Below, piece by piece: positions 4,907 to 33,170 of a stretch of 64,000 nt of DNA; the first letter of the stretch is position 1, and each line of letters opens with the position of its first letter. The stretch lies in contig CM037593.1 of assembly GCA_021018995.1 (NCBI GenBank), positions 20,064,810-20,128,809 on the forward strand, read 5' to 3'. The notes under the pieces are model-generated. The model made no database searches and was not told where the DNA came from. It saw nothing but the letters and a program-made list of their open reading frames with translations. Origin of the DNA: Chloranthus sessilifolius. Lineage: Eukaryota > Streptophyta > Magnoliopsida > Chloranthales > Chloranthaceae. A program made the translations under genes and the position numbers.

Positions 4907-7340
4907 AGAACTTGAAAAACTGAAGAGAACGAAAGAAACAGCAACCAAAACGGATGGCCGAATAGCAAAATATCACGAAAACACGAAAATCAGAGCACAA
5001 AGAAACAAGAAAATAGAGAATCAAAGACTAAAACGGATCACGCGACAAAAATGAAAAGTTTTGAACTATTTATAAGACACGCCAAAATCGCGCGCTTAAA
5101 TTCCGGCTCTCAAACCAATCACGCACCACTCTCACCGTGCTTAATTCGAACTACACAACCGGTCATGAGCACGTAACCTAATCGTCGCCCGCTCAAACAA
5201 ACCCGACCATATGATTACGCGCAGTCTATTAAGCGCATAATCGCTTCAAGCGTCTACACAGTGGCACGCGAATGCCAATGATCACCCCTATAGTGACCAG
5301 CAACCGCCCTAATCACACGTCCGATACCACGCGTTTAACTTGGTCGAACGACTGGAAACTGGTGCTTAATGACATTCTGACGCTCTGAACACGCATGCAC
5401 CCTCTGGCGCGCAATTAATTTATGCACTCAAAGTGAAGCACGCAATTCCCCAGAAATAAAAAAATGCCCAAGATAGCACATTCACAAGCCTAAATAGGAG
5501 ACTTCCAACACTGATTACCAACCTAAACTACGCCCCTGTTAAGCCCAGTCCAAAAACACTTCTGGCGAAGAACATAAACACCCCAAAGCCAAAAATGATG
5601 AATGCCCCCCAACATCACCTACACACTCCAACTAAGACCAAGACTAAACAAAAAAACTAAAAAAATGCCCCCCATCATTCATTCACTTGAACCTAAACTA
5701 AGTTAAACCAAAAACTGCTCTCAGAACACCCCATATCAAAATAAATAAATAAATAAGATCAGACCAAATTTAAATAAATAAGCATTACACCAAGAACAAG
5801 TTGAAGGAAGCTATCAAAATAAACCAAACCAAATTTGCTAAATAAAGATTACCACAAATGAAATAGAAATATAATCATTTCATAAATAAATAAAATAATT
5901 ATAAAATACACCGAGGGCATACCCTCTGAATATACAACTTAAAACAAGAAACTTAAAATCCGCACGTTCAGGCAATGCATGAATCCGGATTTATTCGGGA
6001 AAATAAAAATTCCATCTTCCCCTCTTCCCTTATAGCATGACAGTAATTCGACTGCTACCTTGCATTCCCAATCCCGTCCATTCTCAATAATCCACTCAAT
6101 AAATACAACTCCTCGGGTCCAACATCCAGGATACAAAAAAGAAAGGAAGAAAAGACATTAATGAACAAGAAAATGCCCAAAATAAAAATGCCCCAAAAGT
6201 TTTAATCCCAAACTTGAAATAAAATTCAAAACAACAACCCAAAACTTTTAGCTCACACATTTATAAATTATACCCCCTGAAATATCAAATGACAAGTGTC
6301 ACACCTTTAAACCATTCCAATCTAATTAAATCCAAACCAAACACATACCCCCCTAAAGACCACAATCCATGACAAACCCAGATGAACCAATCATCACACA
6401 ACAGTTACCCTTTCAAGGAAACACAAATCCCAAAGCAAAGTAAACAAGCCAATAAGATTTAAACACTTAACACCCATCTAAAACTTTTGAAAGCTTGCAC
6501 CTTTTAACAAGTGTCACTTCAAATCAAACAAGAGACCAAAACAAAGAACCTTAAACATTAAACAAAAAAATTCTCTAAAGTAAGACCCTAACCTATTTAA
6601 AACCAGAAAAATGCCCCAAACTAACCAAACATAACCAAAAAAAAAAAAACTCTCTAAATAAAACCCGACAAAGCAAATAAGCCCTGAATAAATTCGAACT
6701 GAACCTCAAGTTAAACTAAATCCTAAAATAAGTCAAACAAATAAGATAAATCCAACTAATTCGCTAATACGTTTAAACGAATAAACAAACACGACAAAAA
6801 AAAGCCTCTTTATTTATAAATCAAAAGTTTTACAAGTATCACTGGAGGCATACCTCCTGAATTTACAACCTAAAACGAAAACCTAAAACTTTAACCTACA
6901 ACCCAAAACGAAGACTGGGTTCAAAACCGAGATGAAGCGAGGAGCAAATTCTGCTTGGAGCGTCCAATCAGAGAGTTCAGGGAGAATTGATTGGGAAATA
7001 CATCCCTCCACTTTTTACTCCTTCTCTTCCGCTATCTTCATCTCCTCCACCGCCGCCTTCACCGCTCTTTAAAAAGGACCGATGTGAAGGCTAACGCCCC
7101 CATTCCTAATATCGCCCACTCTCAGAATAATACCGTCCACGAGCATCACCTCGGGACAGAGATCACACGAAATAACAAATATAGGAAGAAATGGCATCTC
7201 AATTCGACGGTTAGATCGCCCAATATCACTAAAATACGAATTTTAAAATACAAGATATCCAGAAAAAGGTCAAAACTTGATACTAAACCAGAGAATGAAA
7301 AATAAATGAAAGCACTCTCGCTTATACAGAGTACAGACTC
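4907..7340. other. Tat internal spacer, A-rich, with a diverged ~0.9-kb duplication
   Basis: Mostly A-rich DNA without a convincing gene. Two parts resemble each other about 930 bp apart. One around 5905-5960 has GAGGGCATACCCTCTGAAT; the other around 6840-6890 has GGAGGCATACCTCCTGAAT. Upstream of each on the minus strand is a short coding-like stretch: 6136-5939, with EWIIENGRDWECKVAVE, and about 7170-6880, with VMLVDGIILRVGDIRNGG and two in-frame stops. I do not recognise either product. They may be exons or duplicates of another small antisense ORF. Confidence 0.4.
5067..5460 (-). promoter_or_regulatory. Tat module 1: TATA box with split-palindrome words, upstream of the antisense PMD ORF
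   Basis: A minus-strand TATAAATAG lies at 5067-5075, about 160 bp before the putative first coding segment of the PMD ORF. Directly upstream (5080-5460) are words made of inverted arms such as GATTACGCGC..GCGCATAATC and AATCACGCAC..CGTGCTTAATT. Similar words recur in the LTR U3. The layout suggests a separate promoter for the antisense ORF; transcription is not shown. Confidence 0.45.
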
Positions 7341-7700
7341 AATCACGTGCCAGAGCACAGGCGCTTAACCAAATCACGGGTCACACATGATGCGCACAAT
7401 CATAAATGCACGCCTTAACCCAAGCACGCAAATATGTCATCGCCCACACCAACGATGCAACGCTCTGATCGCGCGCACTCTATGAACCATGCAAATTTAT
7501 CAAATGGCATGCTACAGTCGCGCGACCTGAAAGGTCACCCATACACTGATCTAGTGATGCCTCGATCACGTGCTATAGTTGTAGAACATAACACAATCAC
7601 ACACATACTCAGACGCTCGTAAGCAGCCCCTCAAGCCTAAGATCGCACGCCTAAAAACAGGCGTGCAAGCGTATTGAGTGACCTAAAACAGGTGCGCAAT
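7321..7700 (-). promoter_or_regulatory. Tat module 2: TATA-like box with split palindromes
   Basis: A minus-strand GTATAAG sits at 7321-7327. On its upstream side is a run of GC-arm/AT-flank inverted words. The clearest are GCACGCCT at 7645-7652 paired with AGGCGTGC at 7659-7666 (perfect 8-bp arms), and ATTGAGTGACCT..AGGTGCGCAAT at about 7674-7699. Downstream lies the coding-like stretch near 7170-6880. Confidence 0.35.
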
Positions 7701-7814
7701 ACCCGAATTTGGAAGAAATCTACACCCTCAAACCTTTGTATCCCATTTTGGCCAAGATTCTTCAGTCCCATCACGTAGCCTCACAAGCTGTTTCGACAGA
7801 AAAGAAAGACCTAC

Positions 7815-8355
7815 TCACCCGTCCCATCGCATATCCTTGCGTGAGAAGGAAGCATTGACAGCACCCATCCCCATCGCGATAATGTGTACACATGCGATAT
7901 CACCTCAATATTCAGTCCCATCATAATAAATTAACTGTACCCTTATGTCCCATCGCGAGAAGCTGAAAGCAAATCTCTCGAGAATGCGAGCACACAACCG
8001 CTAACTACGCTCAATCGACATCCCATCGCGAACATCACTGCCTGAAAAAAAAAAAAAAAAAAAAGCTCAGACAGCACAGGCCACGCCGTATGACGAAAAG
8101 AGGGAAAGCTTGATTATGACTCATCGCTAAGGCGAAGATCTCTCTCTCTCTCCCGAGTTGATCCCCACGTCCCACCAGGACTCACCCAACACACAACCAA
8201 AGAAAGGGAGAATCCCCACATCTTATCGCGACATCATTCTTCCCAGGACATCACATCACAACCGCCAACCCCTCTTACAGAGGACCCAAACAAAAGGAAA
8301 AGAAGATATCTCCAAAGTCCCATCGCGGTACCGCCCCCAACATCCCACCAGTCCC
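7815..8355. repeat. Dispersed CCCATCGCG words in the Tat spacer
   Basis: TCCCATCGCG or close variants occur about seven to eight times in roughly 550 bp (for example near 7817, 7868, 7949, 8020, 8318 and 8350), with irregular spacing and unrelated DNA between. A 20-base A run lies at 8045-8064. No ORF was found and the function is unknown. Confidence 0.6.
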
Positions 8356-8820
8356 ATCGCGGACCACACAGGCTACACGCCATTCAGGTAAGTATCACTC
8401 CCAGGTAAGTGCTACCTGCCTTTTTTTATTTTACTCGATATTCCTCATAAATATAGTTAGCTATGATTAAGTCAAATATTTTCAAAACTATCTCTCTCGA
8501 CTCGCGAATCACTGTAGTCCTTCCATAAGAGACAATCATCAGTACTCACCGAGAAGGTTAGACGGAGTATCCGGCATGCCAAGTGTCGTCTTGACAACCA
8601 TAATAACGGTCAGGTCCATAAATCCCGTACTGGTGGATTTGCTCAGTGACGTCTCAGAAGCCACGCTTTGTATCATTTTACTATCGAATTGATCTTAAAT
8701 TAAAATCCCTAAAATTTCAAATTTTCAAAACCCCAAAAATTTTAAAATCCCCTTACCAAAAAAAAAAAGAAGAAAAGAATAGAAGAACAAAGCCATAAGA
8801 TAAATAGACCAAACTCACCT
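8356..8820. other. Tat spacer, no gene seen
   Basis: A/T-rich DNA between the CCCATCGCG cluster and module 3, with short A runs near 8758-8768. I see no coding frame, RNA gene or element end. Confidence 0.4.
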
Positions 8821-8823
8821 TTC

Positions 8824-9240
8824 TTTAAATACCAAAAAAAAAAAAGATTAAGTGCCCCATCACCCGCGTATAATAAATTACACTTAAACCTAACCTTTAA
8901 CTCCTAAGACCCCTGAACTCGCAATCAAGCACATATTCCACTGCGCAGAATTGGATCAAGCGCACACACCACTGCGTAGAATCATTTGTTTAGACATATT
9001 AGGATTAGAATCTCCAACTTAGAGGCTGACTCCAGATGAATCAAGCACGCGCGCCAATGTGCAGAATTCAATTAAGCATACCTCACAAGACCCTCACCTC
9101 AATTACCGGCCTAAACCAGCCATTCTCCTGGGAAGCCAAACATTGAGTATATTTAATCTAAGAATTTACAAATGCCTATTAAAAAAAGAACGCTTGACGC
9201 GCATTGGTGTGAGCAATGACGCGCCCGGTCTGATATGACT
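8824..9240 (-). promoter_or_regulatory. Tat module 3: TATA-like box with split palindromes
   Basis: A minus-strand TATTTAAAG lies at 8823-8831. Upstream of it (8930-9240) are further words of the family type, e.g. ATCAAGCGCACACACCACTGCGTAGAATC and ATCAAGCACGCGCGCC..TGTGCAGAATT. No open frame follows it on the minus strand, so this may be a decayed or non-coding module. Confidence 0.3.
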
Positions 9241-9529
9241 TGCAAAAGCCTTCAATATTATATAATAATTCATTTTATTATTATTAGTCCCTGGACCTTA
9301 TTTTAGACATTTGATTGACGCCTCGGTACCTCGATTGCATAAAATCCCTCTGTTAGCCCGTACCATGCGGCGGGATGCACCATGTACCCACATACCCGAA
9401 ATGTGCCCTTTGACAGCTACTATTTATCCTTCGAATGCTCTATTTTAGCTTGCACTGATAGATAAGAAAGCCAAGCATGCCATGCCAGCATCCCCAGTTC
9501 ACATTTGTGATTTTCCAAGAGAAACGAGA

Positions 9530-9603
9530 AGACACCTCGAATGAGGGGTGTCTACTTCTTCAACGCGTTCTTACTTCTCAAGAGCGCGTCGAAGAGGGGC
9601 ATC
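9530..9603 (+). promoter_or_regulatory. Tat polypurine tract with upstream hairpin
   Basis: GAAGAGGGGCATC at 9591-9603 directly precedes the LTR start and would prime plus-strand DNA synthesis. Just upstream, AGACACC (about 9530) and GGTGTCT (about 9547) form a stem around TCGAATGAG, followed by a second imperfect stem CGCGTTCTTACTTCTCAAGAGCGCG (9564-9588). Confidence 0.65.
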
Positions 9604-9669
9604 TGTAGACACTCCCATTTTGCCCTCTCAGAATATACAAATTTGTTCGGTCAACCTTTGACCTCATGA

Positions 9670-10163
9670 CCCTGATATGGGACCATATGCTAAAATAATA
9701 ATATATGGTTGGACACAGGCTGAAATAATAGTTCTGTGGCTCAGGCCCCATACCCCCAACGTGGGAACCATGCACTAAAACAATAGTACATGATTGAACA
9801 CAGGCTGAAACAATAGCTCTGTGACTCAGATCCCGACGTAGGGAGACTATATACTAAAACAATAGTATATAGTCAGGATGCAGACTGAAATAATAGTCTT
9901 GCATTTCAAACCCCGTTGCCCTGATATGGGACCATATGCTGAAACAATAGTATATGGTCGAACACAGGCTGAAACAATAGTTCTGTGGCTCAAGCCCCAT
10001 ACCCCCAATGTAGGGACCATGCACTGAAATAATAGTACATGACTGAACACAGGCTAAAATAATAGCTATGTGGCTCAGGTCCTGACGTAGGGAGACTATA
10101 TACTAAAATAATAGTATATAGTCGAAAAGCAAGCTAAAACAATAGCCTGACATTTCAAACCCG
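9670..10163. repeat. 249-bp tandem duplication with internal ~30-bp subrepeats
   Basis: CCCTGATATGGGACCATATGCT starts at 9670 and again at 9919, giving a period of 249 bp and two units. Within each unit a subrepeat of the form (C)TGAAACAATAGT followed by a copy of the preceding 5-6 bases recurs about eight times, e.g. CCATATGCTGAAACAATAGTATATGG and CTATATACTAAAACAATAGTATATAG. Each CTRAAAYAATAG core therefore sits in the loop of a short inverted repeat. Confidence 0.85.
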
Positions 10164-14101: not shown

Positions 14102-15466
14102 TTATCGATTTTGAATGTACCCCTTGCAAGTGCACAAGATCGGTTGTAGCATGGTGAAATCAAGGCTATCGAACCCACAAGGAAGCCCATAATTAAATTA
14201 ATTTTAAAAGAGAAAAAGATGCCTAAGGAAGTACCAAGGGAGCGAAAATTGATTTGCTAAGCAATTACCACACAATACTAGAGCAATAAACGTAAATCAA
14301 TCTAAGGACAAATGATGACAAAGAAAATGACAATTTAAGAAATGATCAAGGAGTTTGCTAACCCTAGATTCGTAACTTCTCTACAATTAAATTCACAATT
14401 TCATACCATATCAAAATACCATTATTTATCAAGAAGAAAAATAAATTGTAAAGAACATGACTATTGATCCAACATACCCTATCCAAAAGCGATGACTCAG
14501 TCTTCTACGGTATGAATCATGTAAAAGGCATAGCGTATCTCAAAATTCTAAATCACGACAGTAAAGAAACAATCACTCTGTAGCCTAGATCGACCTGCAG
14601 GAACAGATCTAGATGGAATGACCCTTTTATGATTGTTGATAACCCAGATTAACGACTATAAATGAGCATTCGATGATATTCAATTAAGCACACACTTATA
14701 GTAAAATTATTCCATGACAATGCTAATAAATTATAGAATTAATGGTAAAGCAGTTACTTATCTAGGGGTCGCTTCCTCCTTGAACAAGAGGTTTTAGCCA
14801 CTCATCCTCTGTGTACAAGCTCATTATAAATCATAAGCCATCATCTTACACATGCACTTTTATTTATCAAAAGATTTCTCCTTACAATGCTTTGTTCCTA
14901 AATACAAAACTATCATTCAAAAGAAACTGTAAAGAAGAGCTATGAAAACCTTAGTACAATCTACCAACAGAAGAAGAACCTAAAGGAAAAAGAGAGAACC
15001 CTTAACCCTAAGCCATAGCTTTGTTTTTATAGGGAGCGAGCAAAACATTTTCCAAAAATATGCTCAATCGATTGAAAGTCCATTCTCAATCGATTGAGTC
15101 CAAATTTACCTTTTGGCGATCATATTTAAATTTGAATTCAAATTTAAAGTAGAGGGAAAAAGCTGTCTTTCTAGTCAATCGATTGAAATTTGGTTTTCAA
15201 TCGATTGACACATAAGGGTAAGGTCTTCATTCTCCTGGTAGATGTTGGGCCAATCAATTATTCTCACAGATTTCGATGCTTCTGCTGACTTCTTAGTCCA
15301 CTGTTCTTATGCAACCATTAATTATCCTCTTTTATGTTCTTTGAAGATCCAATGGTCATAAATACCTGAAATCGCTAAAACTATATAATAGTCGTCAAAT
15401 TCTTTCATCGGATAACAAAATGTAGGAATTAAGGTACAAAATATAGTTATATTTCGGCACAGATCA
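14102..15466 (-). repeat. Athila-B 3' LTR
   Basis: Aligns end to end with 26975-28343. The left end reads TTATCG where the partner has TGATCG (a TG-to-TT change); the right end is GATCA. A minus-strand TATA box CTATAAAAAC lies at 15023-15033. Upstream of it are four TCAATCGATTGA palindromes starting at 15064, 15086, 15175 and 15196, which form two dimers 22 and 21 bp apart. Confidence 0.93.
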
Positions 15467-17092: not shown

Positions 17093-17400
17093 ATTTATAA
17101 GTTCGCAGGAGATCGGTCAATCGATTGACTAAATGTACTCAATCGATTGACTGATGATGCAAGATTCCAATAGGTTATAGGGTTGACAATTCTGCTATCA
17201 ATTGATTGATTTTTGTGAATCAATCGACAAAAATCAATCGATTGACAGTTCCTAACCTGCTGGATGTTTCTGGGCTAATGGTTATCAGTCGATCGATTGA
17301 GACAATGGTCTCAATCGATTAACTGATATACTTTTCAAATCCCGAGAACAATCCTAGATATACTTTTCAAATCCCGAGAACAATCGATTAACTGATATAC
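17093..17400 (-). promoter_or_regulatory. Athila-B module 3: palindrome dimers plus TATA-like box
   Basis: A minus-strand TATAAAT lies at 17093-17099. From 17118 upstream are TCAATCGATTGA-type palindromes in pairs, e.g. 17118 with its partner about 21 bp on, and TCGATCGATTGAG..CTCAATCGATTAA near 17288-17320. A local duplication of TATACTTTTCAAATCCCGAG occurs at about 17328 and 17357. No ORF follows on the minus strand. Confidence 0.5.
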
Positions 17401-17768: not shown

Positions 17769-18005
17769 TCACTTTGGCTTTGGAAACATCAACCACCACA
17801 TCTCTTCTGTGATGTCGATGCCACCGAGTGGAGGAACTGGAGCATAAGGTGGTGATGGTGGCATAGGAGACGTTGATTCTAAATCAACGACCTCGAACTT
17901 TGACAAATCGAGAGGTGATCGAGGTGAGTGGTATCGAGTACGTTTTCGGGCTAGTTCCGCCAATCTCCTAACCACTGATCGGGTATGATACTTGATCGAA
18001 TCCAT
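17769..18005 (-). CDS. Small ORF of unknown function between palindrome modules
   Basis: A 78-residue open frame of unknown function. Its N-terminus is basic (RSVVRRLAELARKR, residues 9-22), the middle is Ser/Pro-rich, and an acidic-aromatic end includes EEMWWLMF. It begins about 75 bp downstream of a minus-strand TATTTAA box at 18081-18087, which has a TCAATCGATTGA array above it. Its position within Athila-B, after the extra ORF and before the 3' LTR, suggests a further element gene or the last exon of one. I know no family match, and it could be a chance ORF. Confidence 0.35.
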   Translation of the reverse strand: MDSIKYHTRSVVRRLAELARKRTRYHSPRSPLDLSKFEVVDLESTSPMPPSPPYAPVPPLGGIDITEEMWWLMFPKPK

Positions 18006-18079: not shown

Positions 18080-18600
18080 TTTAAATAAAGAAGAAGAAAA
18101 AAAACGTCCTAAAACACAACACTCAAAGATTGACTCGAATCTAGATTTTCAGGATGCATAACATATTCTTTTGGCAACTTCATCAGTCAATCGATTGACT
18201 CTTGAGTGTCAATCGATTTACACGTTATATCAGAAAGGCTCACTTGTACACGGCTAGAACTTTACTTTTTCTGAAAAACTTTTCGATACAAGCAATCGAA
18301 GCAAATTTGAAAACTTTCTGTTCCCGACAGAAAGAATTTTCTGTCCACCATAGCGTCAATCGATCGAAATTTTCACTTCAATTGATTGACACTACCCAAT
18401 GTGTACTGTCGGAATTAATTCAAAAGCCTGAATTCAGAAAGATTCTCATACAATGAATGTGAATTTTAGGTCACAATTGATCGATTGAAAAAGGCTTTTC
18501 AATCGATTGACAATTTTAATTTCCATGTGAGAATTCAGAAAGTTTTATTTCTCAATTGATTGAAAAGTTACTCTCAATCGATTGACTAATGAAATTGTGC
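18080..18600 (-). promoter_or_regulatory. Athila-B module 2: palindrome dimers plus TATA-like box
   Basis: A minus-strand TATTTAA box lies at 18081-18087. Upstream are dimers such as 18187/18209 (22 bp apart), about 18357/18378, about 18480/18500 and about 18553/18574. The interval also includes an unrelated A/T-rich stretch. The 78-codon ORF starts at 18005. Confidence 0.5.
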
Positions 18601-18785: not shown

Positions 18786-19968
18786 CTCCTAAATCACACA
18801 TAAAATAAATAATAAAACAAATGGACTAAACATTATCATCATCTTCGGGATCTCCCTCTCCATCCATCGCCGCTCGTGCTCCTGCGATGAAGTCGTCGGC
18901 TTGCCCCGGGAATGACTCTCAGGCAATTCGCATGAGAAGGAAACTCTGAAACCGGGACCGTCGATTAATACCTCCAACTGTTGCACTCAACCCATCCATC
19001 CGCACCTCGAGGCAAGCAACTGCTGCCTCAGTGTTAAAATTAAAGACCTTTTCAGGACGTGGTTGGTGAATGCCGCCACGTTGGCGTTATGCGGGGTTTG
19101 GTCGGGGAGGAGGAGGAGGTATCTCATCAACATCGAAAGGTGGTGGCATAACCCTTAAAATGGCCTTAATTCTTTTGTCCCACACATTAGGACTATAGTG
19201 GTAAAATTGTATATCACCCATTTCCTCATCATCATAAATTGGGCACCCGACCTAGTCCAACAGATGCATGACATAGTGCGGAAAGTGGAGAAGGATAGCC
19301 GCCCGTTTGTGAGGCACAGTGGTGGTAGCGATGTTGTTGTGACACCTCCACATCTCTTCTAGCATCAAACCGGGCGCATCGAACCATGTGTTCATGTGGG
19401 CCGCATAGAGTGCTACCACCCAATTCTTTGTCCTCTCACTTTTGGTACCATGTGGAAGTAAGTTGTTGGACATCACTATGTCCCAAAATAGTATGTCCAT
19501 TTGTAGGGCCGTGCGCTTTGTCGACATTCCCGATCTGTGTCGTCCCGCACATATATTGTTTATCATTATCTCCTGGCTGAGATTGACGGTTGGATCGATA
19601 TGGTGGTTCAATGGGAGAACAACGTAGAAGTTCAATGCACGGGCGAGATCAACGGCATATAGAATCTACAACCAGTTATTGATCCCTAGGCGAATAAATG
19701 CAAAACCCGTCGGAGATTGCAGTGCCGACACCCACTCCATATTCTGGTAGAACAGGCGTATGACACACAATGAGACATCTATAGGAGGAGGTGCGAGCAG
19801 CATTTCTAGGCGCAAGGCTTCGATAAACTTGATTGAGTGTGAAGCTTCAGTGGTACGATGAAACGTTGAAAGATCGAAGACATTCTCGGTTTGACATTGC
19901 CGGTCCACGTACTCGTCGTTCGGGATGCGCATGGGGTTGTTGTTAGGACGGGGTGGTCGGTAGATCAT
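18786..19968 (-). pseudogene. Athila-B extra ORF (plant transposon-associated domain) after integrase
   Basis: Lies where Athila elements carry their third, 'env-like' ORF. The start is taken at the ATG at 19968 (MIYRPPRPNNNPMRIPNDEY), 105 bp downstream of a TATA box. Reading continues through in-frame stops near 19664 and 19250. The middle has LPLNHHIDPTVNLSQEIM and, near 19440, NLLPHGTKSERTKNW followed by LYAAHMNTWFDAPGLMLE. A Pro-rich stretch (PPPFDVDEIPPPPP, about 19130) and a charged tail follow. The central block resembles the extra ORF of Tekay-2 (32.1 kb). I see no signal peptide or clear membrane span, which argues against an envelope glycoprotein. Function is unknown. Confidence 0.65.
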
Positions 19969-20071: not shown

Positions 20072-20640
20072 CTTTTTATATTTCTCTCGTCAATCAATTG
20101 AGTCATGGACTTCAATCGATTGACACTGAACCATGTCGCATAAATTGTAATGGGCATTTGGAATGTGGATGTGACGTGGTACAATCATTCGTGTACCCCT
20201 AATGTCGATCGATTGAGACACTAGTGTCAATCGATTGGCATGTAGCTTTTCATGAAAAGTCGCGACGTTTGACATCTTGGGAATTGGCAGAATTAAGAAG
20301 GATGTCAGGTCAATCGATTGAGGGATTAGTATCAATTGATTGACATTATGATGACTTTTGACTTTACCGCCACCAAAAAGATGCGACGATTGATGCTTCG
20401 ATTTCAAAAATCAGCAATTAATTCAGATTTTATGTCAATCGATTGAAATTGGATTTTCAATAGATTGACATCAAGTAGTGCCGATCGGTCTGGCAAGCAT
20501 TCATGAGGTGAGATGATGTTTTGAACTGAAACATCAATCGATTGAGGAAGATAATCCTCAATCGATTGAGCAAAATATAAGGTTAACCGATTGACTTTTC
20601 TCAAAATCAATCGATTGAGCAGACTCTCAACTTCTAACAC
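20072..20640 (-). promoter_or_regulatory. Athila-B module 1: palindrome dimers plus TATA box upstream of the extra ORF
   Basis: A minus-strand AATATAAAAAGG lies at 20073-20082. Dimers of TCAATCGATTGA-type palindromes start at 20090/20112, 20205/20227, 20310/20332 and 20435/20457, all 22 bp apart, and at 20534/20558 (24 bp). A last pair lies near 20585-20620. The 10-bp spacers differ, so the spacing appears selected rather than copied. The extra ORF begins 105 bp downstream. Confidence 0.7.
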
Positions 20641-20934: not shown

Positions 20935-22088
20935 CTAAACCTTTTGTCCTATGTGGAATTCTTTCCGAAGAATTGATTGATCGCGCAATTTCTGGTATTG
21001 ATCCATGTACATCCTTGAATTTTCATATGCCTCACAGCGTAGCTCTTCCAACTTGTTCAATTGTAACCTGCGATTAGACCCTGCCTCTTGCATATCGGAA
21101 TTAAATCGCTTTATCACCCAGAATGTCTTATGTTCCAATTCGACTGGGAGATGACAAGCTTTTCCATACACAATCCAGAATGGCAACATTCCAATCGGTG
21201 TCTTAAATGTAGTGAGATATGCCTAAAGAGCATTAGATAAATGATTTGACCAATCTTTCTTATCTGCTCACACCGTCTTTTCTAAAATCCACTAGTCTGC
21301 GAGTGGTATGGCATTATGACCTTATGGGTGACACCATATTTCCTCATTAAAGTGGCAAAGTGGCTGTTCCAGAAGTGTGAACCGCCATCACTAATGATTG
21401 CTCTTAGAATCTCAAATCTATTGAACACACTTTCTTTCAAGAATCAAACCACTACTTTATGATCATTCGATCTTGTTGTCATAGCTTCTACCCATTTCAA
21501 AACATAACTGAGGGCCATCAAAATGTATAGATAATTAAATGATGAGGAAAAAGGGCCCATGAAGTCGATCCCCCACACATCGAAAATTTTAACAACCAAA
21601 ATTGGGTTCAATGGCATCATATTCCTTTTCGAAATGTTTCCAAGCTGTTGATATCGTTGGCATTCTTTGCAAAATCTTGCAGTATCCCAAAAGACAGAGG
21701 GCCAATAAAATTCGCTTTCAAGAATTTTATGTGCGGTCTTTTGTCCTCCAAAATGGCCTCCACAGGCCCCAACATGACAGAAATTCATGATACTCAGTTG
21801 CTCTTCTTCTGGTATGCATCTCCTGATGATTTGATCAGAACAGAATTTGAACAAATGTGGCTCATCCCAAAAGTAGTATTTTATTTGAAAGAAAAAGAGA
21901 TTCTTATCATTTCTACCCCATCGCGTAGAAATTTTATCAGTGACCAAATAATTTATGATATTCGCAAACCAAGGAATTTTTGTAGCTGTTGTATCTATTG
22001 CCATTAATTGCTCATCCAGGAAAGTGTCACGGATGGTTTTCGACATAAATGATTCTTCAGGTAGAATTCGTGTCAAATGATCAGCCAT
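20935..22088 (-). pseudogene. pol: Athila-B integrase
   Basis: Integrase inserts the cDNA into chromosomal DNA. The zinc-binding HHCC region is at about 21800-21640 (CHVGACGGHFGGQKTAH followed by CKECQRYQQ). The first catalytic Asp is in FDVWGIDFMGPF near 21570. The second is lost: a V-D-Y-V motif reads L-S-Y-V. After a stop near 21440 the core continues with ISDGGSHFWN, and the C-terminal region (21189-20935) has LPVELEHKTFWVIK and LRDQSILRKEFHIGQKV. Stops, a frame change and the missing Asp mean it is inactive. Confidence 0.9.
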
Positions 22089-22582: not shown

Positions 22583-23430
22583 TCATCTGTAAAATCTAGC
22601 ATGACCCAAAAATGATCGAATTTGACGAACACTTTTTGGTGGAGACAGATTAGCAATTAAGTTAACTTTTGGTTTGTCGACTTCAATTCCTTTTCTTGAT
22701 ATGATATGCCCCAAAATTATTCCCTGTCGAACCATAAAGTGGCTCTTCTCCCAGCTTAGAACAAGATTGGATTCTACACAATGTTGCAATACCTGTGAAA
22801 GGTGTTGCAAGCACAATTTAAAGGTCTTCCCAAAGACAGAGAAGTCGTTCACGAATACCTCGATAAATTTGTCAATCATATCAAAAAATATGGCTAACAT
22901 ATATCGTTGAAAGGTGGTCGAAGCATTACAAAGGCCGAATGGCATTCTGCGATATACAAAAGTACCGTAAGGACACATGAACGTTGTCTTCTCCTGATCA
23001 GTTGGAAATACAGGCACTTGGTTGTACCCCGAATTTCCATCGAGAAAATAGTAGAACTCCTGCCCTGCCAGTTTCTCAAGAATTTTATCAATGAATGGAA
23101 GGAAAAAATGATCCTTTTTAGTGGTTGTGTTTAATTTTTGATAATCAATATACACGCACCACCCAGTAGTATCGCGAGTAGGCACCAACTCCCCTTTAGT
23201 AGTTTCTTTCACTGTAATCCATGACTTTTTGGGAACAATTTGAATTGGGCTTACCCATTCACTATCGGAGATCGCATAGATTATTTCAGTGTCGAGCAAT
23301 TTGATAATCTCTTTTAAAATGACTTCTTTCATGTTTGGATTAAGTCGTCTCTGTGGCTCTCTTGATGGTATGTTGTCATCTTTCAGATGTATTTTATTCA
23401 TACATACTGATGGATCAATCCCTTTTAAAT
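22583..23430 (-). pseudogene. pol: Athila-B reverse transcriptase
   Basis: Long RT block, open from 23401 to 22583. It has RRLNPNMKEVILKEIIKLLD, WVSPIQIVPKK, YIDYQKLNTTTKKDHFFLPF, YFLDGNSGYNQV and MPFGLCNASTTFQRYM. The catalytic box reads F-V-N-D near 22830, where Athila normally has F-V-D-D, so one metal-binding Asp is replaced. The thumb/connection has ILGHIISRKGIEVDKPKV and RQIRSFLGHARFYR. The frame is otherwise well kept for over 800 bases, which suggests a fairly recent loss. Confidence 0.93.
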
Positions 23431-24410: not shown

Positions 24411-26183
24411 TTACTTGATTGTTTCAAGTAATGAAAGATTTATCTTTACTTTTCTTAATGTTTCAAAGATTTCCTCCATTTTTGACGAACCCTTTCCCAT
24501 TCTAGATGGAGATGTCAAACAGTCAGGGAATGGTGCCTTTGGGGTATAAGGGTTGGATTTCAATTCTGGGTTTTCTTTAGATTCCAGTTGGACAATTTCA
24601 GGAGACTCCCTATCTTTTCTTATCTCTAGCTCTTTGTCTTTTACCGCTTCTTCTTTTTTAGATTCCACAAAAATTTCTACTTGATTATCGATCACTCGTC
24701 CACTTCTCAACACAGTGACAGCTTTCAACTGATGGCTAGTCGATGGTCCTTCATTAGACTGTGCTTGACTGCGAGGATTGTTGATGGGTTGGCTAGGAAG
24801 CTTGCCTTCCTCTCTTTGACTAAATTGATTAGCCAATTGACTCAAGTGGTCATTCATCATCTGCTGTATAGCTTGCATAGATTGTTGTTGAAAAGCTTGC
24901 ATGTTCCTCATAACCTTCTCTTCCAAATCAGAATCTTTTGAAGTGGTGGTATGAGATTGATTGAAATTCTAATTTTTTCGGTAGTCAGAATTTGGGTGAT
25001 GATAATAAGAATTCTGTTGAAAGTTAAAATTCTGCTATGGACAAAAGCCATGTTGTCCACTTGATGTGTTAGATCAGTACTGCTAGTTTGCCTGTCCGGT
25101 TTGGTTCGATCCTCCCCATCCTAAGTTAGGACGATTTTTTCATCTCGGATTGTAAGTGTTGGAGTACACATTCCTGTCATGTCGATGATATGACTAAGTC
25201 ACAGTCAACTGTTCTTGAGGAGTAATTTCTTCAGGAAAGATCATCAGATTGGTTGGACACTCATTAGCCATGTGACTTGGGTGTTCACAAATTGAGCAGA
25301 CAGTGGGGGTGGTAGGAGTTTGAGCTTGTTTTATTACAGCTAATAACATGTTCATCTGTTTGGACAACATATCAACTTTTGTTGATAAATCAGAGGTATT
25401 GTTGTTGACATCATACAAGCCACCTTTTGTCAACACATGAGATTTAGTTGTCATATTCAAGTTAGCTCTCCCCAAGGTCTCATTTTGTATTGAAGTTTGG
25501 CATAATCTCTCAAACAATGCCCAAATTTCATCAGCTTCTTTCGTAGCACATGATCCTCTACACAATGCATCCACCATACACCTTTCTTCTGGGATCAATC
25601 TGCTGTAAAAACTCTGAACTTGTTGCCACCTTTGAATATGATGATTAGGGTAACTTTTGACCATTTCTTTAAAACGTTCGCAGCATTCATGAAATATTTC
25701 AGTAGGTTGTTGGGCGTAGAGCAAAATTTTTTGGCGTAACTCATTTGTTTTGCTCATGGGAAAATATTTTTTCAAGAATTCATGTTGAAACTCCGTCCAA
25801 CTCTGGATAAATTATGGTTCTAAGGAATAGAACTAAGTTTTCGCCTTATCCCTTAAAGAGAAGGGAAAAAGTCGTAACTTCACTATCTCATCAATAACAT
25901 TATGAACACTGAATATTTTACACACCGCAAGAAACTCATTCAGATGAGTATGTGGATTTTCATTGCTCAACCCATTGAAAATTGACAACATTTGAATCAT
26001 TGCTAATTTAAATTCGTAATGATTTCCTGGGATGGGAGCATGCATGATGCTATCCTGATCTTCGTAAAAACTGGGATCATTGTATTCTTCCAATGTTCAT
26101 GGGCCCTCATCATGATTCTCATTTTCATTTCCATTATTGTTATCATGATTATTCTCATTCCGTCCTTGTCTTTGATCTACCAT
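24411..26183 (-). pseudogene. gag: Athila-B gag
   Basis: The start is the ATG at 26183 (MVDQRQGRNENN), followed by an Asn/His/Glu-rich stretch and a TGA near 26096. The capsid region is typical of Athila: FKLAMIQMLSIFNGLSNENP, then FLKKYFPMSKTNELRQKI and ERFKEMVKSYPNHH. The zinc knuckle CSICEHPSHMANEC (perfect CX2CX4HX4C) lies at about 25295-25254. After a stop near 25193, the block 24926-24411 is Gln-rich (MRNMQAFQQQSMQAIQQMM) and then charged, the usual Athila gag-protease linker. Three or more stops break it. Confidence 0.92.
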
Positions 26184-26363: not shown

Positions 26364-26900
26364 TCAATCGATTAAATTTACGGACTCAATCGATTGAGGA
26401 AAACACAACAGTGATTCAACAGAAGACTTATCAGTCAATCAATTGATGTGTTAAAATCGATTGATTGAGGTTCAAAATCAGGTTGGTCAGAACAGGAGAT
26501 ACAGCTAAAATTATAAACAACAAAGGTTTTTGTCGATCGATTGAAACAGAAATGTCAATCGATTGACAGAAGCTTCAAAGGTTCCCACAGTGAACAAACT
26601 GGCAACTGATATCCCAATGCTCAATCAATTGATTTCTATAGTGTTTCTTTTTTTTAAAATTAAAATTCAAAATTTAACGTTTAAATTTCAAATTTTTGAA
26701 AATTTCAAATTTTCAAAATTCAAAATTCGGATTTTAAATTTTCAGAATTTTAAAATCAAACAACCCAAAACAATCGATCAATTGATTCTTTTAAATCAAT
26801 CGATTAATTGATTCTTTTAAATCAATCGATTGACAAGACAGTGAGCCACAAGCATAGAACCCAGTCGATCGATTGAAGAAGATATCTCAATCGATTGACT
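26364..26900. repeat. Palindrome dimers in the Athila-B leader, between PBS and gag
   Basis: TCAATCGATTGA-type palindromes occur in pairs 22 bp apart, e.g. 26364/26386 and 26533/26555, with others near 26433/26455, 26790-26830 and 26864-26890. They are separated by a homopurine/A-T block of TTCAAAATTT-type words (26640-26760). This is the 5' leader of the genomic RNA. I saw no TATA box between it and gag. Confidence 0.75.
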
Positions 26901-26974: not shown

Positions 26975-28343
26975 TGATCGGTTTTAAATATGCCCCTTGC
27001 AAGTACACAAGATTAGTTGTAGCATGATAAAATTAAGGGTGTCGAACCCACAGGGAAGCACATAATTAAATTAATTTTAAAACAGAAAAAGATACCTAAG
27101 GAAGTATCAAGGGAGCGAAAATCGATTTGCTAAGCAATTACCACACAATACTAGAGCAATAAATATAAATCAATCTAAGTAAGGACAAATGATGACAAAG
27201 AAAATTATAATTTAAGAAATGATCAAGGAGTTTGGTAACCCTAGATTCGTAACTTCTCTATAATTAAATTCATAATTTCATACCATGTCAAAATACCATC
27301 ATTCATCAAGAAGAAAAATAAATCGTAAAGAATATGACTATTGATCTGACATACCCTATCCAAAAATGATGACTCAGCCTTCTATGGTATGAATCATGTA
27401 AAAAGCATAGCGTATCCCAAAATTCTAAATCACGACAGCGAAGAAATAATCACTCTGCAGCCTAGATCGGCTTGCAGGAACAGATCTAGATGGAATGACC
27501 CTTTTATGGTCGTTGATAACCCAAATCAACGACTATAAATGAGCACTCGATGATATTCAATTAAGCACACACTTTTAGCAGAATAATTCCATAACAATGC
27601 TAAAAAATTATAAGATTAATGGTAAAGCAGTTACTTATCTAGGGGTCACTTCCTCCTTGAACAAGGGGTTTTAGCCGCTCATCCTCTGTGTACAAGCCCG
27701 CTGTAAATCAGAAGTCAGCATCTTAAATATGTACTTTTATTTATCAAAAGGTCTCTCCTTACAATGCTTTGTTCCTAAATATAAAATTATCATTCAAAAG
27801 AAACTGTAAAGAAGAGCTATGAAAATCTCAGTACAATCTACCAATAGAAGAAGAACCAAAAGGAAAAAGAGAGAACCCTTAACCCTAAGCCATAGCTTTA
27901 TTTTTATAGGGAGCAGGCAAGACATTTTTCAAAAATAGGCTCAATCGATTGAAAGTCCATTCTCAATCAATTGAGTCCAAATTTACTTTTTGGCGACCAT
28001 ATTTGAATTTGAATTCAAATTTGAAGTAGAGGGAAAAAGTTGCCTTTCTGGTCAATCGATTGAAATTTGGTTTTCAATCGATTGACACATAAGGGTAAGG
28101 TCTTCATTCTCCTGGTGGATGCTGGGCCAATTAATTATTTTCATAGATTTCGATACTTCTGCTGACTTCTTAATCCATTGTTCTTGTGCAACCTTTAATT
28201 ATCCTCTTTTATGCTATTTGAAGATCCAATGGTCATAAATACCTGAAATCGCTAAAACTATATAACATCCGTCATATGCTTTCATCAGATAACTAAATGT
28301 AGAAATTAAGGTATGAAATATACTCACATTTCTGCACAAATCA
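26975..28343 (-). repeat. Athila-B 5' LTR
   Basis: Starts TGATCGG and ends CAAATCA. It aligns with 14102-15466 over its whole length with many scattered substitutions, mostly transitions. It has the same U3 layout: a TATA-like box near 27898-27908 and two palindrome dimers at about 27945-27980 and 28050-28086. One palindrome is mutated (TCAATCAATTGA). Confidence 0.93.
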
Positions 28344-29208: not shown

Positions 29209-29307
29209 AGCTATTTGTTTCTTTGCATCGTGGAGCTATCAAATCCTGATTTCACAAAACATCGTCTGTTAGTGAATTCGTACGATATAGCCCCTAAAGG
29301 AAGTAAA

Positions 29308-29326
29308 GCCTGGGCTCGGATACCAT
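29308..29326 (-). promoter_or_regulatory. Host chromovirus primer-binding site (initiator tRNA-Met)
   Basis: The minus strand reads TGGTATCCGAGCC, one substitution away from the usual TGGTATCAGAGC primer site. It lies between the gag start and the candidate LTR start TGAAGACC at 29331. Confidence 0.7.
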
Positions 29327-29330
29327 CTCC

Positions 29331-29951
29331 TGAAGACCCAGACTCACATGCCACAATATTATCCGACTCTGAGCTTAGGTCCCCTCCCCGATTTTGTTTC
29401 TGACACAGGCTTAAGTCCCCACTTTCTTAACATCTTGTATCTTAATATATTCATATTTCATCTTTTCTTAAACTTAATTGAAATGGGTCATGGTACGATA
29501 GACTTCACTAAACCACGCTTTCCAAGGACATATTCCGTACTAACCTGGAGGTACTTCGTGTGACATCCCATACTATCATACAGAGTTGCATCCATACATG
29601 AATGCCTATATTCCAAGTTTCACGTGATCGTGAAAGAAATCCTACCGTGACGAAGGCTTATGTCATGTATCATGTCTTAATTCTTAACTTATCATGCTCA
29701 TGCTCTAAAGTAGTTTTTCTATATTATGCATGTCATATGACGATGGTGAACATATATAGGAAGGAAACTATCAAGCACCTAAACATTAAATACTCAATAA
29801 GAAAATTGACATAGATTATATATATTATAAAGCATTGAGTAAAACAGTAAATAAGAGATGTTTAACCCTATATTTGTTCTAAGATTTAAATATGAATCTC
29901 TATAGTATCATATTTAATGGGCATACCATTAAACTAGTATTATTTAATGTC
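29331..29951 (-). repeat. Host chromovirus LTR, partial
   Basis: Sequence beyond the primer site, beginning TGAAGACCCAG (minus-strand end ..TCTTCA). It has no coding potential. It includes a CACGTGATCGTG word (about 29622) and TGTGACATCCC at 29559. It stops where Tekay-2 LTR homology begins at 29952. Nothing to the right of Tekay-2 could be recognised as its continuation, so its length is unknown. Confidence 0.45.
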
Positions 29952-30972
29952 AAAGTCGATTAATCGATTTCCAAAATTGATTAATCGAAATGCAACTCGA
30001 ATAATCGATTCCCAAAATCGATTAATCGAATTCAAAATCGATTAATCGATTCTCAAAATCGATTAATCGAAATTCAAATTCGATTAATCGATCCCAAATC
30101 GACTAATCGAGGTCCCCAACATAAAGCAGTCGATTCTTAAATCGAGTAGTCGAGATCTCAAAATCGATTAATCGAAATCCCAATTCGATTAGTCGATTTC
30201 CCCAGATTTCATTTCTCCAGTGGCTGGAGCTTCCCAGTCGATTAGTCGATTTCCGAATCGACTAATCGAAATTCAAATCGATTAATCGAAATTCATTTCG
30301 ATTAATCAAAATCGGGCCTTCATGACTTTTCAACTTCTCAGACCAAATCAATTAATCGAAATCCCAAATCGATTAATCGATTTAGCCAAACTCAGCCCCC
30401 TTTTCGGGTTGTTCTTCCAAATCCTTCTCAAACAATTTTCTTTCTTTTTCTAAGCCTTTATCCTATGGTTTTAAGTGTTCTTAAATACAATTAAACCTCT
30501 ATAACCTATGCATTTAATTCACACAAAATTTACCTCGATCAAATCTCAATTTGATAAGATCTCAAGGTTGGGATGGCTAGGGTTCCAGCTTTAGCTCCAA
30601 AGGATCCTCGTCGCGTCGAATCCGGCTTTAAATGCTCGAATCCCCCCTTGGCTTGCATTCACTCCTTGCACAACAACCACTCTTAACTTCTCTCCCTCTC
30701 TCTCTCTTCTTAACTCTCTTCAACAACCAAACAAGAGTAACTTAGGGTTCTTTAACCCCTTTATACTCATTTGCCATGTGTTGAGCACATACACCCCAGA
30801 TGGGTGTATGTGGTTCCAGATTTCCCTCACACTCCACACGCTTGCATTAATTTCTCATCACATCCGTTCATCACTCCACAACTCAACTAGTGGACTCCTA
30901 CTTGGTCAAACCTATGACCAATCGGGCACGGATCCCGAGGTCACCGTTTAACATAAATTTTTGGGTTATTAC
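29952..30972 (-). repeat. Tekay-2 3' LTR, truncated
   Basis: Begins on the minus strand TGTAATAACCC directly after a polypurine tract and matches the other Tekay LTRs over about 1.0 kb. It includes the CGATTAATCG array (29957-30380), the CT-rich leader (30687-30712) and a TATA-like GTATAAAGG near 30762-30771. Homology stops at 29952, right after the first palindrome, so the distal 60% is missing. Details such as AAATTGATTAATCGAAATGCAACTCGA match the 38.4-41.0 kb LTR better than the other two, which supports pairing. Confidence 0.85.
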
Positions 30973-30992
30973 ATCCTCCCCACCTTAGAAAT
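30973..30992 (-). promoter_or_regulatory. Tekay-2 polypurine tract
   Basis: The minus strand reads AAGGTGGGGAGGA immediately before the 3' LTR start TGTAATAACC. Confidence 0.85.
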
Positions 30993-31231
30993 TTTCATCC
31001 TTGAAAATAACCCAAAGGTGTTCGCTTGGGTACCCCGCACACTAGGGTGTCGCGTACCCACATACCAAAGCAATTAGATACAATTAATTTATGCAGATAC
31101 ACAAAAGTTTTCTATATTTCATTGATTTTCAAAATTTACAACTTGTTGTATTACATCATTTCAATTACATCAAAAGTGTCAAAAATAGGCATACAAAAAG
31201 AACATCCTCATCTCGGTCTTATGTCATCCTC

Positions 31232-32396
31232 CTAAGCGATCCGATTCTGGGAGCGGCTGCTCCATCCTGTGGCGAGGCATGGGGCTGGTTGGTCATTGGT
31301 CTGTGGTAGCGGCGGCTGTGAAGTCTGGGCTGGCTGCTCCGGTGGCTGTGGTGCCGAGCTCACTGCGTCGGTAGCCGCGGTGGTCGGATGGAAGACTGGA
31401 CCCCTATGGAAGGCGGTCCGTCCCGCGGTCCACTCCTCCTCCTGAGCTAGGCGCCGCTAGTAGTCCAACGGGTAGATGTAGCGGAGCGTATGGAACATAA
31501 GGAAGTCCATCATCCGGTTCATCCACTCGTTGTTAGCCTCCACGCGTGCCAACACGTCCTCAATGGTAAGACCAGAGTGAGGTGCTCGGCGGCAGTAGGA
31601 TGAAGTAGGTGTCGCCGCGGCTGATCTTGATGGTGGTGTAGCTAAGGTGGTGGAAGGTGGCACAATGGGCTGCTGCCCGGCTGACACTGAGGGGTGAGCT
31701 GGGGCTCCCTCAGGTGGTGGAATGACTGGTGGGGTGTCCCCCACTGGTGGTGCTCCCCTAACGGGTGGATCCTACTGTGGTGGTGGGGGTGGTGGTGGTG
31801 CGACCACTACTGGTAGGGTCTTCTTGAGAAGATTGTAGCTACCGCGCCATGAAGCAATGGAGAATTGCTTCACGCAATCTGTAGCCCTCACCTCGTGAGG
31901 CGATACGGCATAGGCGGGGGCATCGGAGTAGCACTCCAACATGCTCGAGATGAGCCGAGCATATGGCATCCTCTCCTTGGGCCTTAAGTTGCCCTTCATC
32001 AATTTTCCTTTTATGTACCTCATCCCCTCGAGGATGAGCATGGTGGCATCAAACCATCAGCCACAGAAGGCTGCATAAAATGCCTGCTGCACCTTTTCTA
32101 CGCGCTCCGTGTCGTGGCGCATGGGGTAGAGGTTACACTTGATTATTGAATCAAGCATCCACATATAGTGGGGAAGGTCGACCCTCCCTGATGGAGGATC
32201 CCGACCCCGTCTTCCCGTTGGTCATACGAGCGACGATCTCCTCAAACTTAACCTCTTCCTCGAAGGGTGGAAAGAGGGTAGTCTCTGGTGTGAAATCAAG
32301 GTAACACTCGAGTACCTCGTGTATGTGGCGACGGGTGATCGTGTATTCCCGACCCTCAATCTTGGTGAAAACAATATCTTCGGTAGGGCCGTCCAT
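31232..32396 (-). pseudogene. Tekay-2 extra ORF (plant transposon-associated domain) after pol
   Basis: An additional ORF between pol and the 3' LTR, unusual for a chromovirus. The start is the ATG at 32396 (MDGPTEDIVFTKIEGREYTI). A frame change lies near 32170 and a TGA near 32058. The centre (32150-31830) reads MWMLDSIIKCNLYPMRHDTE, then FYAAF..WFDATMLILEGM and LISSMLECYSDAPAYA. This resembles the Athila-B extra ORF in motif order (N-L-x-P, E-R, Y-A-A, W-F-D-A, L-E). A Pro-rich tract follows (APPPPPPP, about 31780), then a Ser/Pro/Thr-rich part and IEDVLARVEANNEWMNRMM, a possible coiled coil. After a TAG at 31457 the frame stays open to 31232. Function is unknown. Confidence 0.65.
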
Positions 32397-32562
32397 TAGG
32401 GTTTACCTTAGGTTTCGATGCGACGATAGGCGATCTCGGTCAGAAATCGACGAAGAATGCTCAAAACCCTAGCTATCTCGGTCGGTTGGAGAAGAGGAAG
32501 AAGAAGGCGCGCAAAAATGAAACTCCAAATGTTTTCGAATGGGGTGAAAAACCCATCGATTC

Positions 32563-33170
32563 ATATATATAGGCTCCGGCTCAATTAATCAAAATCCAAA
32601 ATTGATTAATCGAGATTCAAAACTAGGTTAAGCCGCGCGAAATCGATTAATCGATTCCCAAAATCGAATCGATTAGTCGAAACTCAAAATCAATTAATCG
32701 AAATCGTATCTGTTAAAAATTTAAAGTTTTAGAGCTCATTGGCGTAAGCCAGTCGATTAATTGAAATCCATTTTGATTAATCGAAATTTCAAAATTGATT
32801 AATCAAAATTTCAAAATCGATTAATCGAAATTCACTTCGATTAATCGAAATCGTGCAGTCCTTCCAAAATTTTCAAAATTTCTTAAGTTACTCGATTAGT
32901 TGAGCTCCAGTTCGATTAATCGAAATTTCAAATCGATTAATCGAATTTTTCTTCGATTAATCGAAATCACAAAATTCTTCAAAAAAATTTTATTTTTTTT
33001 TTCAAAATTCAAAATCGATTAATCGAAATTTAAATCGATTAATCAAAATTTCCCTTCTTTCATTTTCTGAGTCATCATCAATTTTCCAGTCACTGGCACA
33101 TGCCAGTCGACTAATCGAACAAAATCGATTAATCGAATTTCCAAATCGATTAATCGATTTTGATCAGATT
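32563..33170 (-). promoter_or_regulatory. Tekay-2 module: TCGATTAATCGA array plus TATA box upstream of the extra ORF
   Basis: A minus-strand TATATATA box lies at 32563-32571, about 165 bp before the extra-ORF start. Directly above it (32582-33170) are some twenty copies or near-copies of TCGATTAATCGA in single, non-identical sequence. The array lies downstream of the integrase stop, so it is not needed for pol. It parallels the layout in Athila-B (20.07-20.64 kb) with a different palindrome. Confidence 0.65.

Follow-up and report, generated by a model that had tools for sequence, protein, structure and literature searches.

Family-specific palindromes before the extra gene and, in two families, in the LTRs suggest that retrotransposon families of a plant genome each encode a protein recognising the family's own DNA

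Elements and palindrome arrays in the window

The window, that is, the whole 64-kb stretch of DNA analysed, holds the elements Athila-B and Tekay-2, two further Tekay-like LTR copies and a Tat region (Table 1). The window elements carry gag and pol and are Ty3/gypsy by their domains (RVT_1, integrase H2C2 and SH3_Tf2-1). The LTR pair of Athila-B matches at 91.4% over 1270 bp. The broken extra ORF of Tekay-2 resembles that of Athila at 33.8% over 65 aa, and the 78-aa protein of the Athila-B small ORF has a basic N-terminal half and an acidic/aromatic C-terminus.

Table 1. Features of the window, with window coordinates
Element	Feature	Position	Strand	Remarks
Tekay-2	5' LTR array (TCGATTAATCGA)	39961..40361	-	
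Tekay-2	gag	37492..37854	-	PF03732
Tekay-2	integrase zinc-binding and SH3_Tf2-1 regions, 2 ORFs	33419..34951	-	rve under cut-off
Tekay-2	internal array	32602..33157	-	16 palindromes (≤1 mismatch)
Tekay-2	TATATATA box	32564..32571	-	30 bp past internal array; single copy only
Tekay-2	extra ORF, broken	31460..32396	-	pieces 32154-32396, 32060-32221, 31775-32056, 31460-31771
Tekay-2	3' LTR array	29956..30380	-	
Tekay-like	array in second LTR copy	2321..2830	-	
Tekay-like	array in third LTR copy	55291..55694	-	
Tat-associated	plant mobile domain ORF pieces	3608..4126	-	PF10536, E 5e-10; second piece under cut-off
Athila-B	5' LTR array (TCAATCGATTGA)	27941..28085	-	TATAAAAA at 27901-27908
Athila-B	5'UTR array	26364..26898	-	no TATAWAW nearby
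Athila-B	gag piece	25194..25775	-	PF03732, E 6.5e-4, under cut-off
Athila-B	reverse transcriptase	22583..23401	-	RVT_1
Athila-B	integrase zinc-binding region	21444..22088	-	
Athila-B	array upstream of main extra ORF	20090..20618	-	11 palindromes (≤1 mismatch), mostly 22-bp-spaced pairs
Athila-B	TATAAAAA box, main extra ORF	20073..20080	-	TATAWAWW, same column in 8/8 copies
Athila-B	main extra ORF	19087..19968	-	2 in-frame stops; PF20167-like
Athila-B	array upstream of small ORF	18187..18585	-	CAATCGATTG x7 de novo
Athila-B	TATTTAAA box, small ORF	18080..18087	-	TATTTA in 7/8 copies
Athila-B	small ORF, 78 aa	17769..18005	-	relatives in 8 loci
Athila-B	third array	17117..17322	-	found in 6 aligned copies; TATA not conserved
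Athila-B	3' LTR array	15064..15208	-	TATAAAAA at 15024-15031

Each element has its own palindromic word, which is found both in its LTRs and upstream of its extra ORF. The Athila-B word, TCAATCGATTGA, occurs in 23 exact copies in the window and the Tekay-2 word, TCGATTAATCGA, in 46, against 0.01 expected for each from dinucleotide composition. The words are near-exclusive, with one one-mismatch copy of each inside the other element (26800 and 34345). The earlier note had placed arrays before the main and small ORFs of Athila-B and before the Tekay-2 extra ORF, and all three hold: a de novo palindrome search of the preceding 1 kb recovers CAATCGATTG 11 times (from 20090) and 7 times (from 18187) in Athila-B and CGATTAATCG 16 times in Tekay-2, counts attained in 0 of 60 shuffles. 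Among random array-free segments of the window, 1 of 40 attained 4 copies. LTR and internal arrays have the palindromes alone in common; the spacers, once the palindromes are masked, do not align. Throughout the genome, paired-word counts for three words were 6320+6274, 2194+2201 and 7347+9747, with many places counted twice (on both strands), while the reversed controls gave 0.

The Tat region does not belong to this set. The words at 5080-5460, taken by the earlier note for an array, are accompanied by TATAAATAG at 5067-5075 and by the minus-strand PF10536 ORF, but the de novo search finds no palindrome array there, only a weak word, ATTAAGCGC, in five copies, a count matched by 1 of 50 shuffles. 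Likewise, the supposedly similar arrays at 7321-7700 and 8824-9240 are at chance level, their palindromes being matched by 34 and 31 of 50 shuffles.

TATA boxes beside the arrays

A coding-strand TATAWAW lies at most 150 bp downstream of 6 of the 11 window arrays, against 0.088 at random positions; these arrays are not independent, the LTR pairs being duplicates, and one of the six cases (29824) is a TA-repeat outside the shared LTR end. The genome copies of Athila are the stronger evidence. In the promoter of the main extra ORF, TATAWAWW occupies a single column, 9 bases past the last palindrome, in all eight genome copies, and the small ORF promoter has TATTTA in seven of eight. In the Athila LTRs, TATAWAAW is found nearby downstream of the palindrome cluster in 9/9 aligned rows, which are a selection from more loci with LTR matches (those in L004, L005, L007, L008, L013 and L015 were left out). 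L015 was omitted from the promoter and small-ORF alignments as well.

The adjacency is not general. The array-plus-TATA layout proposed for 17093-17400 stands as far as the array is concerned, but the 5 further copies aligned with it do not preserve the TATA at 17099, and no shared ORF was seen by eye in that alignment. TATAWAW is absent within 130 bp of the Athila-B 5'UTR array and of four Tekay-type LTR arrays; the nearest one to the Tekay LTR arrays is 507-508 bp off in two copies. Hence the suggestion that LTR and internal genes draw on one promoter type, built with the family's own palindrome, fits Athila, in its LTR, main ORF and small ORF alike, and fits Tekay-2 in part: the LTR and internal arrays there have a common word, but the LTR array has no adjoining TATA.

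Conservation of the arrays and one word per ORF clade

The palindromes are conserved above their spacers. Compared with the reference copy, Athila copies (n=8) retain an identity of 0.93-0.96 in the palindromes and 0.48-0.66 in the spacers, and CpG retention is 0.78-0.88 and 0.41-0.57, respectively. Tekay-type LTRs (5 rows) give 0.92-0.95 for palindromes versus 0.68-0.82 for spacers. Across 36 copia-type loci, the commonest base reaches 0.92 in palindrome columns versus 0.74 in spacers, a partly circular comparison, as the columns were selected by motif. Three unrelated words have a common register of 20-22 bp, with 19-23 bp gaps making up 175/321, 115/252 and 58/88 of their gaps. The extra ORFs are under coding constraint: differences at the three codon positions are 0.16/0.11/0.43 in 5 Athila ORFs, a count that leaves out three small-ORF copies, and 0.22/0.13/0.43 in 8 copia-type ORFs.

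ORF type and palindrome type are correlated within the same genome, a check that the earlier note had set beforehand. From 150 scored hits of 13855 candidates, 43 loci (L024-L066) were picked solely on a match to PF20167 (Pfam); most of them lack internal stops, and their frame lengths vary. At least three copies of one word lie upstream in 40 of the 43 (37 with ACGGACGTCCGT, the word of the copia-type ORF clade, 1 with GTGGTTAACCAC and 2 with GCCTCGCGAGGC, the words of other distinct clades), the words having first been found in those same loci; the other words are present there in 0-1 copies. At the arrayless L024, L036 and L066, the upstream sequence is pol, gag or another element, and the word count of L066 covers the first 400 upstream bases. 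The shuffle test, uncorrected for multiple testing, is passed by 38 of the 42 loci to which it was applied. Its strict exact-palindrome form is failed by L015 (TCGATYRATCGA-like), L063 and L065; within 2 mismatches, L065 has 6 copies and L063 has 7. TCAATCGATTGA occurs 10-12 times upstream of the Athila ORFs in 8/8 distinct copies, seven of them chosen by that word: L001-L023, among which L003 and L023 are one copy, were picked by a TCAATCGATTGA pair, and its presence there is selection. The pattern comes from one genome and five or six clades, in which each promoter is inherited together with its ORF.

The copia-type loci, so labelled from their pol domains, sit after a copia pol (RVT_2 with E 4e-61 in L024; the RNase H end by eye in L033). 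Copia-type L033, L051 and L063, as well as L062 and L065, score 52.6-64.6 bits against PF20167, above the Pfam cut-off of 45 bits. The Athila-type proteins do not reach this cut-off (23.6 bits for the window piece, 18.1 for L020, none for L014), and the piece at 19252-19635 of the Athila-B main extra ORF matches PF20167 with E 5.5e-5, under the curated cut-off. In profile comparison, the Athila type gives 98.3% with L064/L065 and 0.2% with the copia type. The Tekay-2 pieces had no match to PF20167 in the profile search; compared as profiles, piece b gives 65% with Athila and piece c 66% with L065, all other pairs being at most 9%. The extra ORFs of Athila and Tekay are no more than weak PF20167 relatives.

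Proposed self-recognition, its rivals and known systems

The family-specific palindromes before the extra gene and, in two families, in the LTRs suggest that each family makes a protein directed at the family's own DNA. We give slightly better than even chances to the reading that the extra protein binds the palindrome of its own family; the element would thereby find its own copies, switch on or un-silence its kin and auto-activate the binder. The clustered palindromes of each family would then be the putative sites of a sequence-specific, probably dimeric DNA-binding protein, as 10-12 bp palindromes spaced by about two helical turns and located upstream of the internal extra-gene TATA boxes, within LTRs and, for Athila, also at other non-coding positions. 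The likeliest binder would be the element's own PF20167-type (Transposase_32) product, in Athila possibly aided by the small basic protein.

Host transcription factors might bind the palindromes instead, with host-regulator sites taken up by each family in both LTR and internal promoters and the extra ORF having another role (env-like, or particle helper). We regard this as unlikely, though it deserves serious weight. It is textbook knowledge that LTR promoters can take over binding sites of host factors. Array, TATA and ORF make up an ordinary promoter unit, and env-less Sireviruses also have LTR palindromes (PMC2829016). However, a single family of binders is the simpler explanation for five distinct words, all palindromic and each tied to a clade of PF20167-type ORFs, three of which keep the same 19-23 bp register; in addition, one array sits where the TATA is unconserved. 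The same anatomy, with sites closely upstream of TATA boxes, is equally expected if the extra protein is a repressor that binds the family palindromes and shuts the promoters as a copy-number control. Sites upstream of the TATA or start, rather than over them, are more usual for activators, and we consider repression improbable.

The palindromes could also act as RNA or single-strand hairpins, such as siRNA sources or replication signals, since copies 22 bp apart can pair and adjacent palindromes are complementary to each other. Hairpin and siRNA roles of the maize Sirevirus palindromes are reportedly under discussion. Among TCAATCGATTGA pairs with both facing positions changed, 6/10 are complementary, an outcome that CpG decay in the two arms also yields. 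Against this, compensated changes number 6 versus 138 substitutions in 178 TCAATCGATTGA pairs and 2 versus 119 in 137 CGGACGTCCG pairs; the word itself is conserved, beyond mere complementarity, and the hairpin explanation seems very improbable to us. Tandem repeats are frequent in Retand non-coding regions (PMC11963269), and the arrays could in principle be a neutral product of tandem-repeat slippage, to which we assign hardly any probability. Slippage would duplicate spacer and word jointly, yet spacers from different arrays cannot be aligned once the palindromes are masked, and across the copies of Athila, of the copia type and of the Tekay-type LTRs the words are kept while the spacers decay; both observations contradict it.

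The proposed self-recognition by the extra protein has a parallel in the VANC proteins of VANDAL elements, for which motif binding and demethylation have been shown (PMC5735166, PMC10398659). In both cases, an element-encoded protein family would go with short motifs, one for each member, densely clustered in non-coding DNA (PMC5735166, PMC10398659); the likeness is drawn from layout rather than from a VANC-PF20167 sequence comparison, and binding in the present elements is presumed. For VANC21 the motif is a 9-mer that is not a palindrome and forms arrays of a single orientation (Hosaka 2017, PMC5735166; Sasaki 2023, PMC10398659), and the hosts here are LTR elements with gag and pol, unlike VANDAL, which are Mutator-like DNA transposons. 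More tentatively, and at somewhat less than even odds, the extra genes of plant LTR elements, known as envelope-like or orphan genes, may across both superfamilies (copia-type, Athila, Tekay) form one fast-evolving, PF20167-centred self-recognition family, each member specific to its own palindrome in LTRs and internal promoters and lifting silencing or activating kin alone, VANC-like but independently evolved. We hold this lower because of the 0.2% between Athila and copia-type profiles. If true, it would account for extra ORFs diverging until seemingly unrelated. Binding of these proteins to their own family's palindrome, if it occurs, would account for unrelated words sharing one array geometry and would give plants, besides VANC, another and independent example of elements that recognise themselves by sequence. 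The extra ORFs of plant retrotransposons are "envelope-like" by long usage, and palindrome binding, if true, would make their function testable.

The earlier note regarded such a pair as new for LTR elements, which needs correction on two counts. Palindromic repeats upstream of the TATA box in the LTRs, and again before the env-like gene, were published for Sireviruses in 2010 (Darzentas et al. 2010, PMC2829016), and a 2026 paper citing VANC already asks whether extra ORFs of LTR elements shape their epigenetic state (PMC12844716). What appears new is the palindrome extension to Ty3/gypsy and the link with PF20167, for which we found no earlier report among open-licence papers. In sunflower, an Athila sense ORF is partly similar to PF20167 and is predicted to localise to the nucleus, and the Tekay ORF is found at the 5' end, unlike that of Tekay-2; the accessible parts of these accounts describe no palindromes (PMC11728184, PMC12844716). 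Grande gene23, which has a promoter of its own and yields a nuclear product (PMC7264820), and the Retand ORFs, including TRP28, for which DNA binding has been proposed (PMC11963269), lie between pol and the 3' LTR, as the extra ORFs do here, but they are antisense, belong to other protein families and have tandem repeats instead of family palindromes (PMC7264820, PMC11963269).

The Sirevirus case is close in layout, with high-copy, family-specific palindromes in the LTRs and before an extra gene between pol and the 3' LTR (PMC2829016). That study dealt with Ty1/copia, whereas the window elements are Ty3/gypsy, and it termed the motif a Sirevirus-specific feature; its accessible text gives no PF20167 link, Ty3/gypsy member, clade-by-clade coupling or 21-bp register (Darzentas et al. 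2010, PMC2829016). A Sirevirus-like LTR cluster upstream of a nearby TATA occurs in Athila, not in Tekay. The copia-type ACGGACGTCCGT has the CGG-CCG core of the Sirevirus palindromes, and the Tnd-1 word ACAATCGATTGT has the core CAATCGATTG in common with the Athila-B word (PMC2829016).

Palindrome arrays of the two Ty3/gypsy elements

Exact copies of TCGATTAATCGA and TCAATCGATTGA number 46 and 23 in the window, as compared to 0.01 expected for each, and they are clustered rather than scattered. The TCAATCGATTGA arrays are carried by a minus-strand Athila-like Ty3/gypsy element with RVT_1, an integrase zinc domain and a weak gag piece, and the TCGATTAATCGA arrays by a Tekay-like element with gag, an integrase zinc domain and SH3_Tf2-1. 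The lineage names, taken from the initial sequence reading, are consistent with these domains and should be read as probable assignments by domain content. When any repeated 10-base palindrome was sought de novo in the kilobase upstream of three window ORFs, the same two words were recovered with 7 to 16 copies per region, equalled in none of 60 shuffles, while 1 of 40 random array-free window segments attained 4 copies. The arrays of these elements (Athila-B and Tekay-2) exceed chance, and the earlier note's proposal that each element has its own palindrome is borne out for both. Once the motifs were masked, LTR and internal arrays did not align, although LTR-LTR controls did; only the palindromes are common to them, and the arrays are therefore not recent copies of each other.

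Arrays, ORFs and other repeats, in window coordinates unless a locus is named
Feature	Position	Observation
TCAATCGATTGA arrays, Athila-like		both LTRs, 5'UTR, before main extra ORF, before small ORF, third site
Third Athila array	17117-17322	found in 6 copies
Small Athila ORF	17772-18005	conserved, 78 aa; basic cluster and acidic, aromatic end (by eye); has an array of its own and a TATTTAAA box; 8 loci hold relatives
TCGATTAATCGA arrays		both Tekay-like LTRs, before extra ORF, two further LTR copies
Isolated TCGATTAATCGA words	62355-62453	two exact
Paired TCGATTAATCGA words, elsewhere in genome	G000:C1:9250877-9259506	two places ~8.3 kb apart; 22 bp spacing where letters shown; as if LTRs, with Athila-type spacing yet the Tekay word
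TTGATCGATCAA array, PF20167 locus	L066:1-400	8 copies when up to 2 mismatches are allowed; belongs to another element, which adjoins a truncated copia-type PF20167 ORF
Tandem duplicate	9661-10158	249-bp unit, 86% identity, beside Tat-like region
Satellite-like block	49600-51935	dense repeat family, spacing about 51-79 bp
14-bp tandem repeat	63708-63987	ACGATTGCAAAGTC-like; 15 register copies of 84-base reference among the matches listed

Conservation among genome copies

Copies were taken from the window's own genome (2.17 Gb). In eight Athila copies, the palindrome positions, defined in the reference copy, show 93-96% identity in the others and the spacers 48-66%, and CpG is retained in 78-88% of comparisons in palindromes vs 41-57% in spacers. 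Tekay-type LTRs (five rows) show 92-95% identity in palindromes and 68-82% in spacers, with no clear contrast in CpG retention.

The TATA box before the main Athila ORF occupies a single alignment column in 8/8 copies, 9 bases past the last palindrome in each. The same plan recurs in 9/9 LTR rows (five or six elements), and the small-ORF promoter has a TATTTA box in 7/8 copies, so that the proposed sharing of one promoter plan between LTR and internal genes is supported for these three Athila promoters. It does not extend to the third array, whose suggested TATA is not conserved although the array itself is kept; arrays are therefore more than promoter parts.

Words and extra-ORF clades

Within the main Athila ORF, one piece shows weak Pfam similarity to PF20167 (Transposase_32). 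Frames of up to 391 codons are open among Athila copies. Read by eye, the longest of them contains a linker rich in proline and a heptad-like stretch, and its tail is acidic. Codon-position differences are highest at the third position in both the Athila ORF (0.16/0.11/0.43, five ORFs) and the small ORF (0.25/0.21/0.46, five ORFs).

A PF20167 search gave 150 scored hits from 13855 candidates, and 43 loci were fetched for inspection of upstream DNA. An array lies upstream in 40 of them: 37 copia-type loci carry ACGGACGTCCGT, one GTGGTTAACCAC and two GCCTCGCGAGGC, and the window's words have at most one copy there. In the other three, gag, pol or another element replaces the promoter. The shuffle test was passed by 38 of 42 loci tested and failed by L024, L036, L063 and L065. 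L024 and L036 are rearranged, with copia RT or Pol_BBD sequence joined to the PF20167 ORF and the internal promoter missing. With the window included, five distinct words accompany five ORF clades in this one genome, as the suggested correlation of ORF and palindrome type would have it. A looser sixth word at L015, a locus whose ORF is 36-38% identical to that of Athila-B, is unsupported by shuffling.

Profile comparison linked copia-type ORFs to L062 (99.8%) and Athila to L065 (98.3%), L062 and L065 being non-copia-type PF20167 loci. Copia-type and L065 gave 28.7%, although both exceed Pfam's cut-off, and Athila and copia-type compared directly gave 0.2%. Athila appears connected to copia-type ORFs indirectly. 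Tekay pieces reached 65-66% at best, a tentative link to other PF20167-type ORFs.

A putative binder and array geometry

A 2010 study (PMC2829016) describes palindromes in Sirevirus LTRs, where they precede a TATA box, and also upstream of the env-like gene; here, arrays also occur in Athila-like and Tekay-like Ty3/gypsy elements. VANC-type recognition is established in VANDAL elements, and a 2026 paper asks something similar about the extra ORFs of LTR elements. Searches of open-licence papers turned up no earlier description of palindrome arrays for either Athila or Tekay, and none of a coupling to PF20167.

The likeliest mechanism is that a family-specific protein, most likely the PF20167-type product, would bind the palindromes and work through LTR and internal promoters. 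Co-segregation of word and ORF is no proof of binding, because the promoter travels with its ORF. However, the recurrence of the same word in the Athila and Tekay LTRs, kilobases from the ORF, and the single geometry of unrelated words go beyond co-segregation. The protein might either activate its targets or lift their silencing; the arrays without TATA weakly favour a chromatin role.

The palindrome step is 22 bp in Athila, 20-22 and 40-42 bp in copia-type loci and 20-21 bp in Tekay, and gaps of 19-23 bp make up 175/321, 115/252 and 58/88 for the three words. Outside that range of gaps, Athila arrays keep a weak helical phase (R 0.18) and those of the other two a moderate one (0.48, 0.55). 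A spacing of two helical turns would set dimers on one face of the DNA.
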